This document shows positions 30,654 to 36,609 of a stretch of DNA of 39,753 nucleotides, piece by piece. How positions within the stretch are numbered: position 1 is the stretch's first letter; each line of letters opens with the position of its first letter. Both the position numbers and the translations under genes were made by a program. The stretch is from NCBI GenBank assembly GCA_020845895.1, contig JADLEX010000115.1, positions 1 through 39,753 on the forward strand. Direction: 5' to 3'. This DNA comes from Deltaproteobacteria bacterium (GTDB lineage Bacteria > Lernaellota > Lernaellaia > JACKCT01). The notes beneath the pieces are model-generated. The model did no database searches, was not told the origin of the DNA, and saw only the letters and a program-made list of their open reading frames with translations.

Positions 30654-31394
30654 GTGAGCGCGCCCGTCGTCATCCCCGTCCCGGGCTTCGTGTCCTGGGC
30701 TTACATCCTCGTCGGCGAGACACTCGCGCTCGTCGATCCCGGTTCGCCGTGGATCGTGCGCGAAGCCGAGCGAGTGGCGCGCGAACAGCTCGGTCCGGAC
30801 GCGCCGCCCTTCACGCGCCTGTTCGCCACGCACTGGCACATCGACCACGTCGGCGGCATGCGCTACGCGGCGAAGCGCTGGAACGCGAAGGTGATCGTCT
30901 CCGAACGCATCGCCTATCACCTGCGCGAAGGACAGCGCATCGTGTTTCCGGCGTGGCCGCGATTTTGGGGCATGGTCACGAACCGCCACGACATGGATTT
31001 TCAGAAACCCGTATCGTGGTCCGGCCTCGTCGAGATGGAACGCGTAGGGCTGCCCGGCAGCAAAGGGTCGAGCTGGAAGGGGCGCGTCGACGAGTACCTG
31101 CCGGACGGTGTCGCCCTGCCCGGCCACGGCGACTGGACGCTCCTCGAAACACCGGGGCACACAAACGACTCCGTGAGCTTTTGGCACGCGGGCGAGGAGG
31201 CGGTGATCTGCGGCGACAATATTTTGGGCGGGCGCGACCGTCTGTTCGTCAATCGCTTCTTGTGGAGCGACGAACACGCCGAGGCGTCGATCGCACGGCT
31301 TCAGCAGTTCGACGTGCGACGCCTGCTGCCGGGGCACGGCAAACTGCACGAAGGCGCGAATCTGCTGCGCGGTCTCGTCGTCACGCCGCGCTAA
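30654..31394 (+). CDS. MBL-fold metallo-hydrolase (glyoxalase II-like)
   Basis: The protein of about 246 residues has the metallo-beta-lactamase-fold metal site: HWHIDH near residue 60, the third His in TPGHTND, Asp in ICGDN and the last His in LPGHGK. Such enzymes hydrolyse thioesters, lactones and other substrates, and this one cannot be assigned further. The start is uncertain. GTG at 30654 just clears the lipoprotein stop; an upstream in-frame GTG at 30579 would overlap that gene. It overlaps the convergent pyruvate-kinase-like gene by 14 bases. Confidence 0.88.
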   Translation: MSAPVVIPVPGFVSWAYILVGETLALVDPGSPWIVREAERVAREQLGPDAPPFTRLFATHWHIDHVGGMRYAAKRWNAKVIVSERIAYHLREGQRIVFPAWPRFWGMVTNRHDMDFQKPVSWSGLVEMERVGLPGSKGSSWKGRVDEYLPDGVALPGHGDWTLLETPGHTNDSVSFWHAGEEAVICGDNILGGRDRLFVNRFLWSDEHAEASIARLQQFDVRRLLPGHGKLHEGANLLRGLVVTPR

Positions 31395-33273
31395 AGTCGC
31401 TCACGTCCAGCGGTCCGAGCAGCGGGCTTTTCTTGTGCTGGTGGCCTTCCATGCGGTGCAGGATCTCCCCCGCCATGCGGATCGTCTCCAGAATGTGCGG
31501 CCCCTTGCCCAGCAGCACGCACTCCGCGCGCCCGCTCATCGCCGTGTCGGTGATCTCGGCGCGCGACGGCAGGCCCGACTTCGCGAGGTTTTCCAGCACC
31601 TGCGTCGCCCAGATGACCGGCACGTGGGCGGCCTCGCTGATCCACAGGATCTCCTCCTGGGCCTCCGCGAGGAATTCGAACCCGCACTCCACCGCGAGAT
31701 CTCCTCGTGCGATCATCACGCCCACCGACGGGCTGCTCATGGCCTGAAGCAGGATGGCGGTGAGCCGCTCGAGCGCCTGGCGCGTCTCGATTTTCGCCAC
31801 GACGCCCAGATGCGCGCCGCCGAGCCGCGAAAGTTCCCTCTGAAGATCGGCCACGTCGCCGGGGCCCGAGACGAAGGAGAGGGCGACGATGTCCGCGAGC
31901 GCGACGACCGTGCTCAGATCCTCGGTGTCGCGCGCGGTCAGCCCTTTTACGTGCAGCATGCTGTCGGGGAAATTGATGCCCTTGTCGGCGCGTAGCTTCA
32001 CGCCGCCGGGCGCGGCGCGCGTGACGCGAAGCCGCAATTCGCCGGCTTCGATGTGCTCGATCGTTGCGGCGATCTTGCCGTCGTCGAGCAGGACGCGCTC
32101 GCCGATCTTCACGTCGGCGAAGACTTCGGGCAGCGTGCACGGAATTTGCGCAGGCGAGATCTCGCGCCCGCGATCGAGCGAAAAGCGCGCCGGACGACCG
32201 ATGCGATCCGGGCCGGTCACCACGAGCGTGTCGCCCTCGCCGAGGATGACCGCCTGTTCCAGCGACGGCAGCGGGCCGATCACGCCGCCGGGGTCGTCTT
32301 CGGCACCGACTTTCTTCAGCACGAGACCGGGGGCCATGTAGCCCGTGCGTTTGCTTTCCAGCACGAACCCGCGTCCCTCGGCGGCGACGACCCGCAGCGT
32401 ACGTTTGCGACGGCGCAGATCGGAGAGCACGAGGTCGTCGCCCACGGCCAACGTCGCGAGCCAGGCGCCGGACACCGGCACGACAACACCCGGAACATCC
32501 TCGGGGTTCTCCGCGGGGGTGAGACGCAGCAACGCGGATTCGATCACGATGCCGCGCTCGTTGCGCCGCGGTTGCCACTTGAGCACGGCGGGGCCGGGCT
32601 CGATGGCGCCGGTGCGCAGCTTGGGTCCGGCGAGGTCCATGAGGACCTTGCATGGGCGACCGAGCGCGCTCGCGGCTTCGCGGACGTTCGCGGCCATGCG
32701 TGCCCAGACGTCGGCGTTATCGTGTGCGCAGTTGATGCGCGCGCAGTCCATCCCCGATTCGATCAGCGCGCGCACGAGAGCCGGATCTTCCGCAGCCTCG
32801 GTCGGAAGCGTGACCATGATGCGCGCGGCGCGGTCCTCACGAGCTGGACCGAGGAGCGCGTCCGCGTGGTCCGCGATCATCCGAGCGCCATCTTCGAGCG
32901 TGATCGGGGGCAGGAAAGGCTCGGGTTGCTTCCACTCGCGGCCCGCGGCCTGATGCAGTAGACGCAGCACGGCGGTGAGATTCGAAAACACGTGCGACTC
33001 GCTGCGTCCGAGCGATGAGAGGCCGAGCGCGGCAAGGCGCCGCTGCAAGGCGCGGATGTCGTGACGACGCAAGGCGATGTAGTGAAGCAGGTTCTTCGCG
33101 CCCGCTTCGAATGCCTCGCTCACGCGCGACACCATCGGCCGGAACTGCGCTTCGAATCCCAGGATGTCGTCGCGCAAGGCGACGAGTTCCTCGATCAGCG
33201 CTCCCAGATCGTCCGGAGCGTCAGCCGGTCGGTCGGACGTCGATTCACCCGAATGATTGTGGATGGCACGCAT
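31381..33273 (-). CDS. Pyruvate kinase-like protein, C-terminal domain missing
   Basis: The protein of about 630 residues has an N-terminal helical extension of roughly 150 residues, then a pyruvate kinase barrel. Barrel motifs are GMDCARINCAHD, MDLAGPKLRTG, VVAKIETRQALERL (catalytic Lys), MIARGDLAVE and ATQVLENLAKSGLPSRAE. The B domain between them is enlarged. The regulatory C-terminal domain of typical pyruvate kinase (about 120 residues) is missing. The family is known as large pyruvate kinase-like proteins in several bacteria; the true reaction is unproven. The ATG at 33271-33273 follows AAG and a run of nine G (minus strand) that would act as Shine-Dalgarno. Confidence 0.85.
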   Translation of the reverse strand: MRAIHNHSGESTSDRPADAPDDLGALIEELVALRDDILGFEAQFRPMVSRVSEAFEAGAKNLLHYIALRRHDIRALQRRLAALGLSSLGRSESHVFSNLTAVLRLLHQAAGREWKQPEPFLPPITLEDGARMIADHADALLGPAREDRAARIMVTLPTEAAEDPALVRALIESGMDCARINCAHDNADVWARMAANVREAASALGRPCKVLMDLAGPKLRTGAIEPGPAVLKWQPRRNERGIVIESALLRLTPAENPEDVPGVVVPVSGAWLATLAVGDDLVLSDLRRRKRTLRVVAAEGRGFVLESKRTGYMAPGLVLKKVGAEDDPGGVIGPLPSLEQAVILGEGDTLVVTGPDRIGRPARFSLDRGREISPAQIPCTLPEVFADVKIGERVLLDDGKIAATIEHIEAGELRLRVTRAAPGGVKLRADKGINFPDSMLHVKGLTARDTEDLSTVVALADIVALSFVSGPGDVADLQRELSRLGGAHLGVVAKIETRQALERLTAILLQAMSSPSVGVMIARGDLAVECGFEFLAEAQEEILWISEAAHVPVIWATQVLENLAKSGLPSRAEITDTAMSGRAECVLLGKGPHILETIRMAGEILHRMEGHQHKKSPLLGPLDVSDFSAA

Positions 33274-33276
33274 CTT

Positions 33277-33285
33277 CCCCCCCCC
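33277..33285 (-). promoter_or_regulatory. G9 homopolymer at the ribosome binding site of the pyruvate-kinase-like gene
   Basis: Nine consecutive G on the minus strand end 3 bases before the ATG. Runs of this length slip easily and would change Shine-Dalgarno spacing. Confidence 0.5.
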
Positions 33286-33519
33286 GAGATCCGCAGTGCG
33301 ACGGAATGATACCGGACGATTTGAAGGCGTGGCCAGCACAAAACGGTGCGTTACGAGGATGTCGCTACGATGTCGCGCGTGCGTCACGTAATTGTCAAAT
33401 TTCCTTTGCGCACGATGACCGCGACGGGTTGGCGGATTGGTATCAATTATCACCATGGGTGCCGCGTGTGCTGGACGATCCGCGAATTCGACGTTACATC
33501 GAATCGTAACGGAGGGCGA

Positions 33520-34053
33520 ATGAGCGTCGCGAAGAATCTGGCGGCCATCGAACTCGCGGATGCGAACGGCGTGCGGCGGCGACTCGGCGACTTCTGGGCG
33601 GATCGCCCGGCGGTCGTCGCGTTCGTGCGCCACTTTGGGTGACTGTTCTGCCGCGAGCAAGTCACGCAGTTGCGTGATTCGTTGGACGAGATCGAAAGAC
33701 GCGGCGCGACGCTGGTCGTCATCGGCAGCGGCAAACCGCATCATGCGAAGTGGTTCGCCGAGGACCTGAACTACGACGGCCCGATTCTCGCCGATCCGGA
33801 TCTGGTCACGTATCGCGCGGCGAAACTGCGGCGCGGATACTTCTCCCTGCTGTCCCCGGCCACGATCGCGGCGGCCATGCGCGCGTTTCGCGGGGGATTT
33901 CGCCAGACGCGCACGCGCGGCGACCCGTGGCAGAACGGCGGCATCTTCGTGTTTGCGCCGGGCGACCGCATCCTCTTCGAGCAACGCAGCGCGGTCGCGG
34001 GCGACCACGCGCGCGTTGGCGAGATCCTCGCGGCGCTCGAACGGGCCCGCTGA
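33520..34053 (+). CDS. Peroxiredoxin-like selenoprotein (UGA = selenocysteine at residue 41)
   Basis: The frame starts at ATG 33520 with GGAGG at 33511-33515 and would give 177 residues if the TGA at 33640-33642 is read through. Upstream is VVAFVRHFG, downstream LFCREQVTQLRD. In AhpC/TSA-like redox proteins (peroxiredoxin-like, SelL-related) this segment reads RHFGCxFCREQ, so the UGA falls exactly on the first redox cysteine and makes a U-x-x-C motif. The downstream part continues as a thioredoxin fold (GATLVVIGSGKPHHAKWF, ILADPDLVTY, GGIFVFAPGDRILFE). The alternative is a nonsense mutation, but the position and hairpin favour selenocysteine. Confidence 0.85.
33640..33677 (+). promoter_or_regulatory. 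Putative bacterial SECIS element
   Basis: Starting at the UGA, a hairpin with stem TCACGC (33662-33667) and GCGTGA (33672-33677) closes the loop AGTT, 25 bases after the UGA. Bacterial SECIS elements lie directly after the UGA, with a small apical loop that carries G-U. This one fits in position and loop content. Confidence 0.65.
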
Positions 34054-34107
34054 AGGGCGCCGGATTACACAGGACATTGATCGACGCGATTTGTCGTCAT
34101 TTCGCTG

Positions 34108-34136
34108 TTGACGTCCGATTCGTGAAGTGATAGCAA
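34108..34136 (+). promoter_or_regulatory. Candidate promoter of the Trypco2-like/chitosanase/trypsin cluster
   Basis: TTGACG at 34108-34113 and TAGCAA at 34131-34136 are separated by 17 bases, in an AT-rich 230-base gap before the first cluster gene. The -10 match is weak. Confidence 0.4.
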
Positions 34137-34285
34137 TTTCCATATTCCATTGTGTGTTTGAATTTTATTTCACGTTGAGCTGATCGGCGTTGCGGCCTCG
34201 AGCCGCCGCGCGATCGCGCGTGACGATGCCCGAAAACGACTCTTGGCGCCGGCCATTGCGGCGCATGACTAAAAGGAGATGAAAG

Positions 34286-35311: not shown

Positions 35312-35602
35312 ATGGCTGAAGAACAAAAGGAAGAACAGCTCGTCACGCTGCTGGAGCAGGTCGTCGGCGCCGCGGCGACATCGGCGCGCTCGCTGCGTCT
35401 CGCCATGGCCGACCGCACGGCTTGGCCCGATTACGTCTATCACATCCAGAAATTCACGATCAAAGTCCAGGTCGCGCTGGCGTTCAAGGAAAAAAAGCTC
35501 TTCGGATTGCTGGGCACGCAAAAGGAAGGCGCGACGAACAGCAGCGTGGAATTCGAGATGGTGGCCGTACCGATCCCCGAACTCCCCGAGCCCAATCCGT
35601 GA
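35312..35602 (+). CDS. Trypco2-like small cytoplasmic protein C
   Basis: The 96-residue protein has no signal peptide. It has an N-terminal helix (EEQLVTLLEQVVGAAATSARSLRLAM), then YVYHIQKFTIKVQVALAFKEK, a Gly turn (LFGLLG) and a last strand VEFEMVAVPIPELPE. The order is the same as in protein A at 34286-34609, with the core YxIxKxxIxVxV. It is shorter than typical Trypco2 proteins at the C-terminus. A GAGGTG precedes the ATG. The chitosanase-like gene follows after 68 bases. Confidence 0.7.
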   Translation: MAEEQKEEQLVTLLEQVVGAAATSARSLRLAMADRTAWPDYVYHIQKFTIKVQVALAFKEKKLFGLLGTQKEGATNSSVEFEMVAVPIPELPEPNP

Positions 35603-35670
35603 GGGCCGCGCGTGCGAAAAAACCGATCGGCGGCGCCGCAAAGGTCGCGACGCCCGCGAAGGAGTCCGCC

Positions 35671-36609
35671 ATGAGTCTCACCGACACGCAGAAGAAAACC
35701 GCGCAGGCGATCGTGAACATCTTCGAAACCGGCAAGCCCGTGGGCGATTACGGCAACGTTACGCTCATGGCCGGCGACAGCGGGCATCTGACCTATGGCC
35801 GTTCGCAGACCACGCTCGCGAGCGGAAATCTTTATTTGCTCATCAAGGACTACTGTGGCGCGGCCGGCGCGGCGCTGGCGGGCGAACTCGCGCCGTATCT
35901 CGACCGGCTGGAGCGAGCCGATCTCTCGCTCGATCACGACGCGAATCTTCGGTCGGCCCTGCGCCGCGCGGGGGACGACCCCGTGATGCGCGACGTGCAG
36001 GACCGTTTCTTCGACCGCGTGTACTTCGCGCCCAGCCAGGCGGCGTGCGCGGCGCTGGGCGTCGCGACCGCGTTGGGCGCTGCGGTGGTGTACGACAGCC
36101 ACATCCATGGCTCGTGGGGCCGGATGCGCGACCGCACCAACGAGCAGGTCGGCGCGTGCGCCTCCGTCGGCGAAAAGGCGTGGATCGAGGGCTACGTGAA
36201 GGTGCGAAAATCGTGGCTCTTGAATCACTCCAACACGCTGCTGCGCAAGACGGTCTACCGGATGGACGTGTTCATCCGACTCTTCGGCGAGAAGAACTGG
36301 GACCTCAAGTTACCGCTCCACGTGCGCGGCATCCGCATCGACGAAGACGCGATCGACGGCGCCGAGCCCGCGCGCGTGACCGCGACCGACGCGCCACCAC
36401 CGCGATTGCTGTCGCTGAAAAGTCCCGCGCTGACCGGGCCCGACGTGAAGGCGCTGCAATCGGCGCTCATCGCGGCCGGGGCGACGATCTCCGCGGACGG
36501 CGTGTTCGGACCCAACACCGACAAGGCCGTGCGCGACTTTCAGCGCTCGAAGGGCCTCGTGGTCGACGGCATCGTCGGCCCAACAACGCGGACGTATTTG
36601 GGGATGTGA
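35671..36609 (+). CDS. Chitosanase (GH46)-like protein with peptidoglycan-binding domain, no signal peptide
   Basis: GH46 chitosanases share the lysozyme fold and cut beta-1,4-linked glucosamine chains. The 312-residue protein opens directly with the catalytic region: E19 in IFETGKPVGDYG and D36 in AGDSGHLTYGRSQT are the likely acid and base, in the GH46 spacing. Residues about 245-312 form a PG_binding_1 domain (LKSPALTGPDVKALQSAL, ADGVFGPNTDKAVRDFQ). No signal peptide is present, so export must use lysis, a contractile injector or another route, or the target is internal. AAGGAG at 35659-35664 supports the ATG. It lies in the Trypco2-like cluster. Confidence 0.87.
   Translation: MSLTDTQKKTAQAIVNIFETGKPVGDYGNVTLMAGDSGHLTYGRSQTTLASGNLYLLIKDYCGAAGAALAGELAPYLDRLERADLSLDHDANLRSALRRAGDDPVMRDVQDRFFDRVYFAPSQAACAALGVATALGAAVVYDSHIHGSWGRMRDRTNEQVGACASVGEKAWIEGYVKVRKSWLLNHSNTLLRKTVYRMDVFIRLFGEKNWDLKLPLHVRGIRIDEDAIDGAEPARVTATDAPPPRLLSLKSPALTGPDVKALQSALIAAGATISADGVFGPNTDKAVRDFQRSKGLVVDGIVGPTTRTYLGM

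Follow-up and report, generated by a model that had tools for sequence, protein, structure and literature searches.

The locus raises the question whether a TGA within the frame of a peroxiredoxin-like protein is a selenocysteine (Sec) codon or the trace of a damaged gene. The frame lies in the window, by which we mean the whole stretch of 39,753 nucleotides that was analysed, and its features are collected in Table 1.

An in-frame UGA predicted to encode selenocysteine

As the first-pass annotation had described, the TGA is the sole internal stop of the frame and stands in the context RHFG-U-LFCREQ, which gives a UxxC motif. GC3 is 0.85 upstream and 0.84 downstream of the UGA, as expected if both sides belong to one reading frame. 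A mechanical listing of open reading frames breaks the gene into two wrong fragments (33346-33642 and 33670-34053), the kind of splitting by gene callers that had been foreseen. We conclude that the gene almost certainly encodes a selenoprotein with a predicted Sec at residue 41, the computed support for this assignment coming from the reading frame, the SECIS element, the Sec machinery, the protein family and the fold. It is not unheard of: the gene adds to the UxxC peroxiredoxin-like (Prx-like) selenoproteins, which were recognised by the time of the Sargasso Sea survey, if not earlier (PMC1088965).

Table 1. Positions of the selenoprotein gene and its elements in the window.
Feature	Position	Strand	Remarks
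SelL-related UxxC selenoprotein gene	33520..34053	+	177 residues, Sec at 41; terminal stop TGA 34051-34053
Shine-Dalgarno-like GGAGG	33511..33515	+	From sequence; 4 nt ahead of ATG 33520
In-frame UGA read as Sec41 (predicted)	33640..33642	+	Codon 41; N-terminus of helix 42-53, thioredoxin-fold active site
TGC, Cys44, presumed resolving Cys of U-x-x-C	33649..33651	+	Invariant in alignment A2 and in all 107 aligned rows
Bacterial SECIS hairpin within the CDS, stem AGTCACGC / GCGTGATT, loop AGTT 33668-33671	33660..33679	+	Fold, published model, covariation, loop Leu codon

Gene neighbours within the window gave no functional lead. The upstream ORF at 33015-33509 was rejected as a possible operon partner, as its GC3 is 0.48 and it matches no family. 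A 920-aa frame at 31381-34143 (-) overlaps the selenoprotein gene, and naive start calling would carry this frame through it. Since its family match, to a pyruvate-kinase barrel, is confined to residues 664-878 (about 31510-32154), the overlap probably arises from mechanical extension of the N-terminus. Further downstream, the frame at 35422-36609 (+) encodes a GH46 (chitosanase-family) domain and, at its C-terminus, a peptidoglycan-binding domain.

A SECIS hairpin downstream of the UGA

The published model of bacterial SECIS (bSECIS) elements specifies a loop of 3-9 nt, a stem of 4-16 bp, a G within the first two loop positions, a spacing of 16-37 nt from the UGA and a minimum free energy (MFE) of -7.5 kcal/mol or lower (PMC13188914). 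The window hairpin satisfies all of these rules. Its stem is 8 bp long, its 4-nt loop AGUU starts 25 nt past the UGA, the spacing that had been given for the proposed SECIS, and its fold energy is -10.6 kcal/mol (33658-33681), or -9.9 kcal/mol for the 20-nt hairpin alone. To estimate how often such a hairpin arises by chance, the protein was kept fixed and synonymous codons were redrawn from local usage in 3000 draws. An equally stable hairpin appeared in 34 of the 3000 redraws and the -7.5 threshold was passed in 47. The chance of the hairpin is about 1% when judged from this gene alone and far lower given the family evidence. When the 67 nt that follow the UGA were folded freely, another pairing was preferred and stability was unexceptional (z -0.98), and an Rfam scan of the window returned no match; the SECIS signal is a local and an evolutionary one.

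Conservation of codon 41 and of the SECIS element

Homologues were collected from relatives, GTDB contigs, 379 genomes of a single phylum (with a Myxococcales locus as the entry point) and extra regions. Among the 107 that were aligned, 80 have TGA at the Sec site, 26 have a Cys codon and one distant protein has ACG; these counts, like those of hairpins and loop codons below, carry no single P value because the sequences are related. The UGA is thus flanked by coding homology on both sides and replaced by Cys in some homologues. The earlier statement that relatives have Cys at this place holds for distant relatives, whereas close relatives mostly have TGA. The second Cys (Cys44) is kept throughout (107/107), and the aligned stretch is free of further stops in 79 of the 80 TGA homologues, which occur in Myxococcota, Binatia, Krumholzibacteriota and others. 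On the tree, parsimony gives 8 changes between Sec and Cys, at least 5 of them forced by well-supported branches. The genome of the window also holds a distant Cys-containing paralogue of the family (L040, C46:29451-29834, -).

A SECIS loop at the position found in the window (class A) is present in 63 of the 80 TGA genes, with the loop AGTT in 59. In the remaining 17 a different hairpin lies closer to the UGA; its loop is mostly of the AGGTC type, at a distance of about 16 nt. Two SECIS positions therefore occur in one family (L089, L096, L111 and L116 are examples to set against the window), which suggests that the element was relocated between the AGUU position at 25 nt and the AGGUC-type position at about 16 nt in the course of evolution.

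Covariation was analysed on 35 distinct class-A sequences with a 7-bp stem and 500 shuffles. Stem cells were paired in 96.3% of cases compared to 86.6% in the shuffles, cells altered on both sides of the stem numbered 24 compared to 6.1, and the covariation score was 0.407 compared to 0.212, a value as high being reached in 0/500 shuffles. The signal was lost in slid versions of the stem. Covariation and doubly changed cells indicate that compensatory base changes preserve the class-A stem, as in GTCGCGC/GCGCGAC, GTCACGC/GCGTGAC, GTGGTGC/GCACCAC and GTCGCCC/GGGCGAC. A Leu codon contributes part of the loop. It reads TTG in 58/58 class-A genes, while TTG makes up 7.3% of Leu codons elsewhere in the same genes; in Cys homologues with Leu at this codon it is TTG in 0/21. 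A hairpin following the bSECIS rules was found in 73/80 TGA genes versus 4/26 Cys genes.

These data bear directly on the possibility of a pseudogene or a sequencing error, in which the TGA would be a nonsense mutation or a misread TGC or TGT: the codon is one base away from either and the assembly is a draft of 171 contigs, but 79 other genes of many genomes have TGA at this codon with the frame otherwise open, and the hairpins of the TGA genes covary, so that this explanation is barely credible for the window and, judged by TGA conservation, is already refuted at the level of the family. Because the same TGA recurs in these 79 homologues from independent genomes, a sequencing error at 33640-33642 can for practical purposes be excluded.

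The selenocysteine machinery

The first-pass annotation had made its reading depend on the presence of selB and tRNA-Sec. Both were found in the genome (draft assembly, 99.5% complete), together with selA and selD. SelA was detected with an E-value of 7e-171, SelB with 2e-92 (a 691-aa frame) and SelD with 3e-110, and the tRNA-Sec has the anticodon UCA and scores 75 bits. The proposal of a likely selenoprotein is in this way supported by the SECIS element, the machinery and the TGA codon in 80/107 homologues. The selD gene (L018, C17:65379-66293, -) has a UGA at the known Sec site of SelD (GAG-U-ACK) and is a selenoprotein gene in its own right.

A second tRNA of this genome (L010:1500-1592, -, on C124) combines the Cys anticodon GCA with a long variable arm and scores 48 bits against the Rfam tRNA-Sec threshold of 47. 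Its neighbours are 3HCDH and GH79 genes rather than a CysRS gene, and an ordinary tRNA-Cys is present besides on C60 (L165). The GCA tRNA may be a Cys tRNA that resembles tRNA-Sec, or it may have decayed. Its score just above the threshold could be taken to mean that the UGA is read otherwise, either as Trp in a changed code or as Cys inserted by a tRNA at the Sec codon, and other bacteria are known to insert Cys at Sec positions (PMC8762117). However, the anticodon of the long-arm tRNA is GCA and not UCA, the tRNA that does carry UCA is the 75-bit tRNA-Sec, SelA and SelB are both present, and the window gene itself terminates with TGA. We regard such a reading as very improbable. Insertion of Sec by SelB at the UGA of the window is strongly supported: SelB with Sec-tRNA(UCA) would bind the hairpin with the AGUU loop a short distance 3' of the UGA, and selenocysteine would be inserted at codon 41 rather than translation being terminated.

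In the 379-genome set, a TGA-interrupted homologue was present in 88 genomes and SelB in 207. SelB scored over the cut-off in 72 of the 88 TGA genomes and SelA was found in 14 of the other 16, so that 86 of the 88 have either. Both were absent in these searches from the remaining two (G256 and G422), whose assemblies are possibly incomplete. SelB was also found in 7 of the 12 genomes with Cys homologues only, indicating that Cys at this site does not simply equal loss of the Sec trait.

Protein family and fold

The peroxiredoxin-like, SelL-related character that had been proposed was borne out by profile searches. The best Pfam match of the protein is PF13911 (AhpC-TSA_2, PRXL2-like; 63.9 bits, E 2e-17, gathering score 27), followed by PF00578 (42.5 bits). 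The NCBIfam model NF040769 (SelL-related redox protein), whose name already relates the family to SelL, gave 127.1 bits for the full protein, a small margin over its cut-off of 120, and 118.1 bits, slightly below that cut-off, in a six-frame search of the genome. The AlphaFold model (pLDDT 97.1) places residue 41 immediately ahead of helix 42-53. Human prostamide/prostaglandin F (PGF) synthase (PRXL2B, 9us9 / 9usa) is the best PDB match by sequence (E 4e-8) and by fold (TM 0.80/0.86), and Bcp/PrxQ-type and AhpE peroxiredoxins come next. In alignment A2, Arg37 and residue 41 are invariant together with Cys44, and His38 and Gly40 almost so. These results support a single-domain thioredoxin-fold enzyme of the SelL-related / PRXL2 (AhpC-TSA_2) branch.

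Compared to known systems, the window protein shares with human PRXL2B the fold and an active-site pair two residues apart (C44/C47 in human), but the human protein has CxxC without Sec and is 24% identical in the fold alignment. NF040769 matches the window protein over its whole length, although the score is marginal and the window branch consists mainly of Sec forms and frequently carries a fused short-chain dehydrogenase (SDR). In animals, SelL carries UxxU with a diselenide bond. The window protein resembles eukaryotic SelL as a Prx-like selenoprotein, but it has UxxC, with an invariant Cys44, in place of the UxxU that forms the diselenide. SelL itself has been described as a Prx-like protein of prokaryotes and eukaryotes (PMC2398784). 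The published selenoprotein entry 'AhpC/TSA family protein, pfam13911 / cd02970' belongs to the same Pfam family, PF13911, but has the motif UxxS (PMC9312934, PMC13188914) instead of UxxC. The published Prx-like entry (UxxC, UxxU) agrees in its UxxC motif, its Prx-like fold and its long-known occurrence in bacteria, but, compared by description only, it is listed under PF00578 while the window protein is nearer to PF13911. Sec-peroxiredoxins (TxxU) have the peroxidatic motif PxxxTxxU (PMC13188914), unlike the RHFGUxxC found here. In the part of the literature covered, no paper was found on PF13911/NF040769 proteins with UxxC or on their fusion to an SDR.

Predicted activity

The window protein is most likely a Sec-based thiol-dependent reductase. 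By analogy with UxxC thioredoxin-fold enzymes in general, from which both the Se-S cycle and the electron donor are inferred, the selenolate of Sec41 would attack an oxidised substrate, Cys44 would close an Se-S bond, and thioredoxin or a similar donor would then reduce this bond. The substrate may be a hydroperoxide or lipid endoperoxide, a proposal that we consider evenly balanced. Human prostamide/PGF synthase reduces the endoperoxide PGH2. The PGF-synthase-like fold, the SDR fusions and the gene neighbours in relatives provide the hint of a lipid peroxide.

Alternatively, the selenoprotein could be a general thiol-disulfide oxidoreductase and not a peroxide or endoperoxide reductase. The UxxC geometry is thioredoxin-like, and thiol:disulfide oxidoreductase is the usual description of UxxC Prx-like bacterial selenoproteins in the literature (PMC9312934, PMC1088965). 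However, the closest fold is that of human prostamide/PGF synthase, some homologues have catalase-peroxidase, GST, CMAS or photolyase genes as neighbours, and SDR fusions are frequent. A general oxidoreductase is a serious alternative, to which we give somewhat less than an even chance.

SDR fusions in relatives

Many homologues carry an SDR (PF00106) fused in one frame. Such frames of about 510 aa with a Sec domain and an SDR were seen in L044, L054, L063, L082 and about 15 other loci; in L054:499-2025 (-), for instance, the SelL-related Sec domain is fused in frame to the SDR. L045 instead has the SDR as a gene of its own, abutting upstream. CMAS lipid methyltransferase genes lie near the homologues in L047, L049, L145 and L157. 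L147 and L149 have photolyase genes, L147 a GST in addition, and L144 a catalase-peroxidase-type gene (PF00141). None of these SDR, CMAS, photolyase, PF00141 and GST genes adjoins the window gene, which makes their hint of a lipid peroxide an indirect one. An SDR partner is absent from the window locus, and the best match to the L045 SDR in the same genome is only 37% identical.

The SDR-fused Sec subfamily is the most interesting by-product of the analysis. The large, mostly-Sec PRXL2/SelL-like subfamily that is widespread in Myxococcota and neighbouring phyla, and that often carries an SDR, might act as an NAD(P)H-linked lipid peroxide/endoperoxide reductase, a tentative suggestion that we think rather unlikely to be correct. 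Because standard gene calling stops at TGA, a mostly-Sec enzyme subfamily of environmental bacteria is easily missed or mis-annotated. The physiological role of PRXL2/SelL proteins is poorly known, and the SDR fusions and the SDR neighbour offer a testable pathway partner and an enzymatic handle on them. If the suggestion is true, this mostly-Sec subfamily would be a bacterial equivalent of prostaglandin F synthase that relies on selenium.
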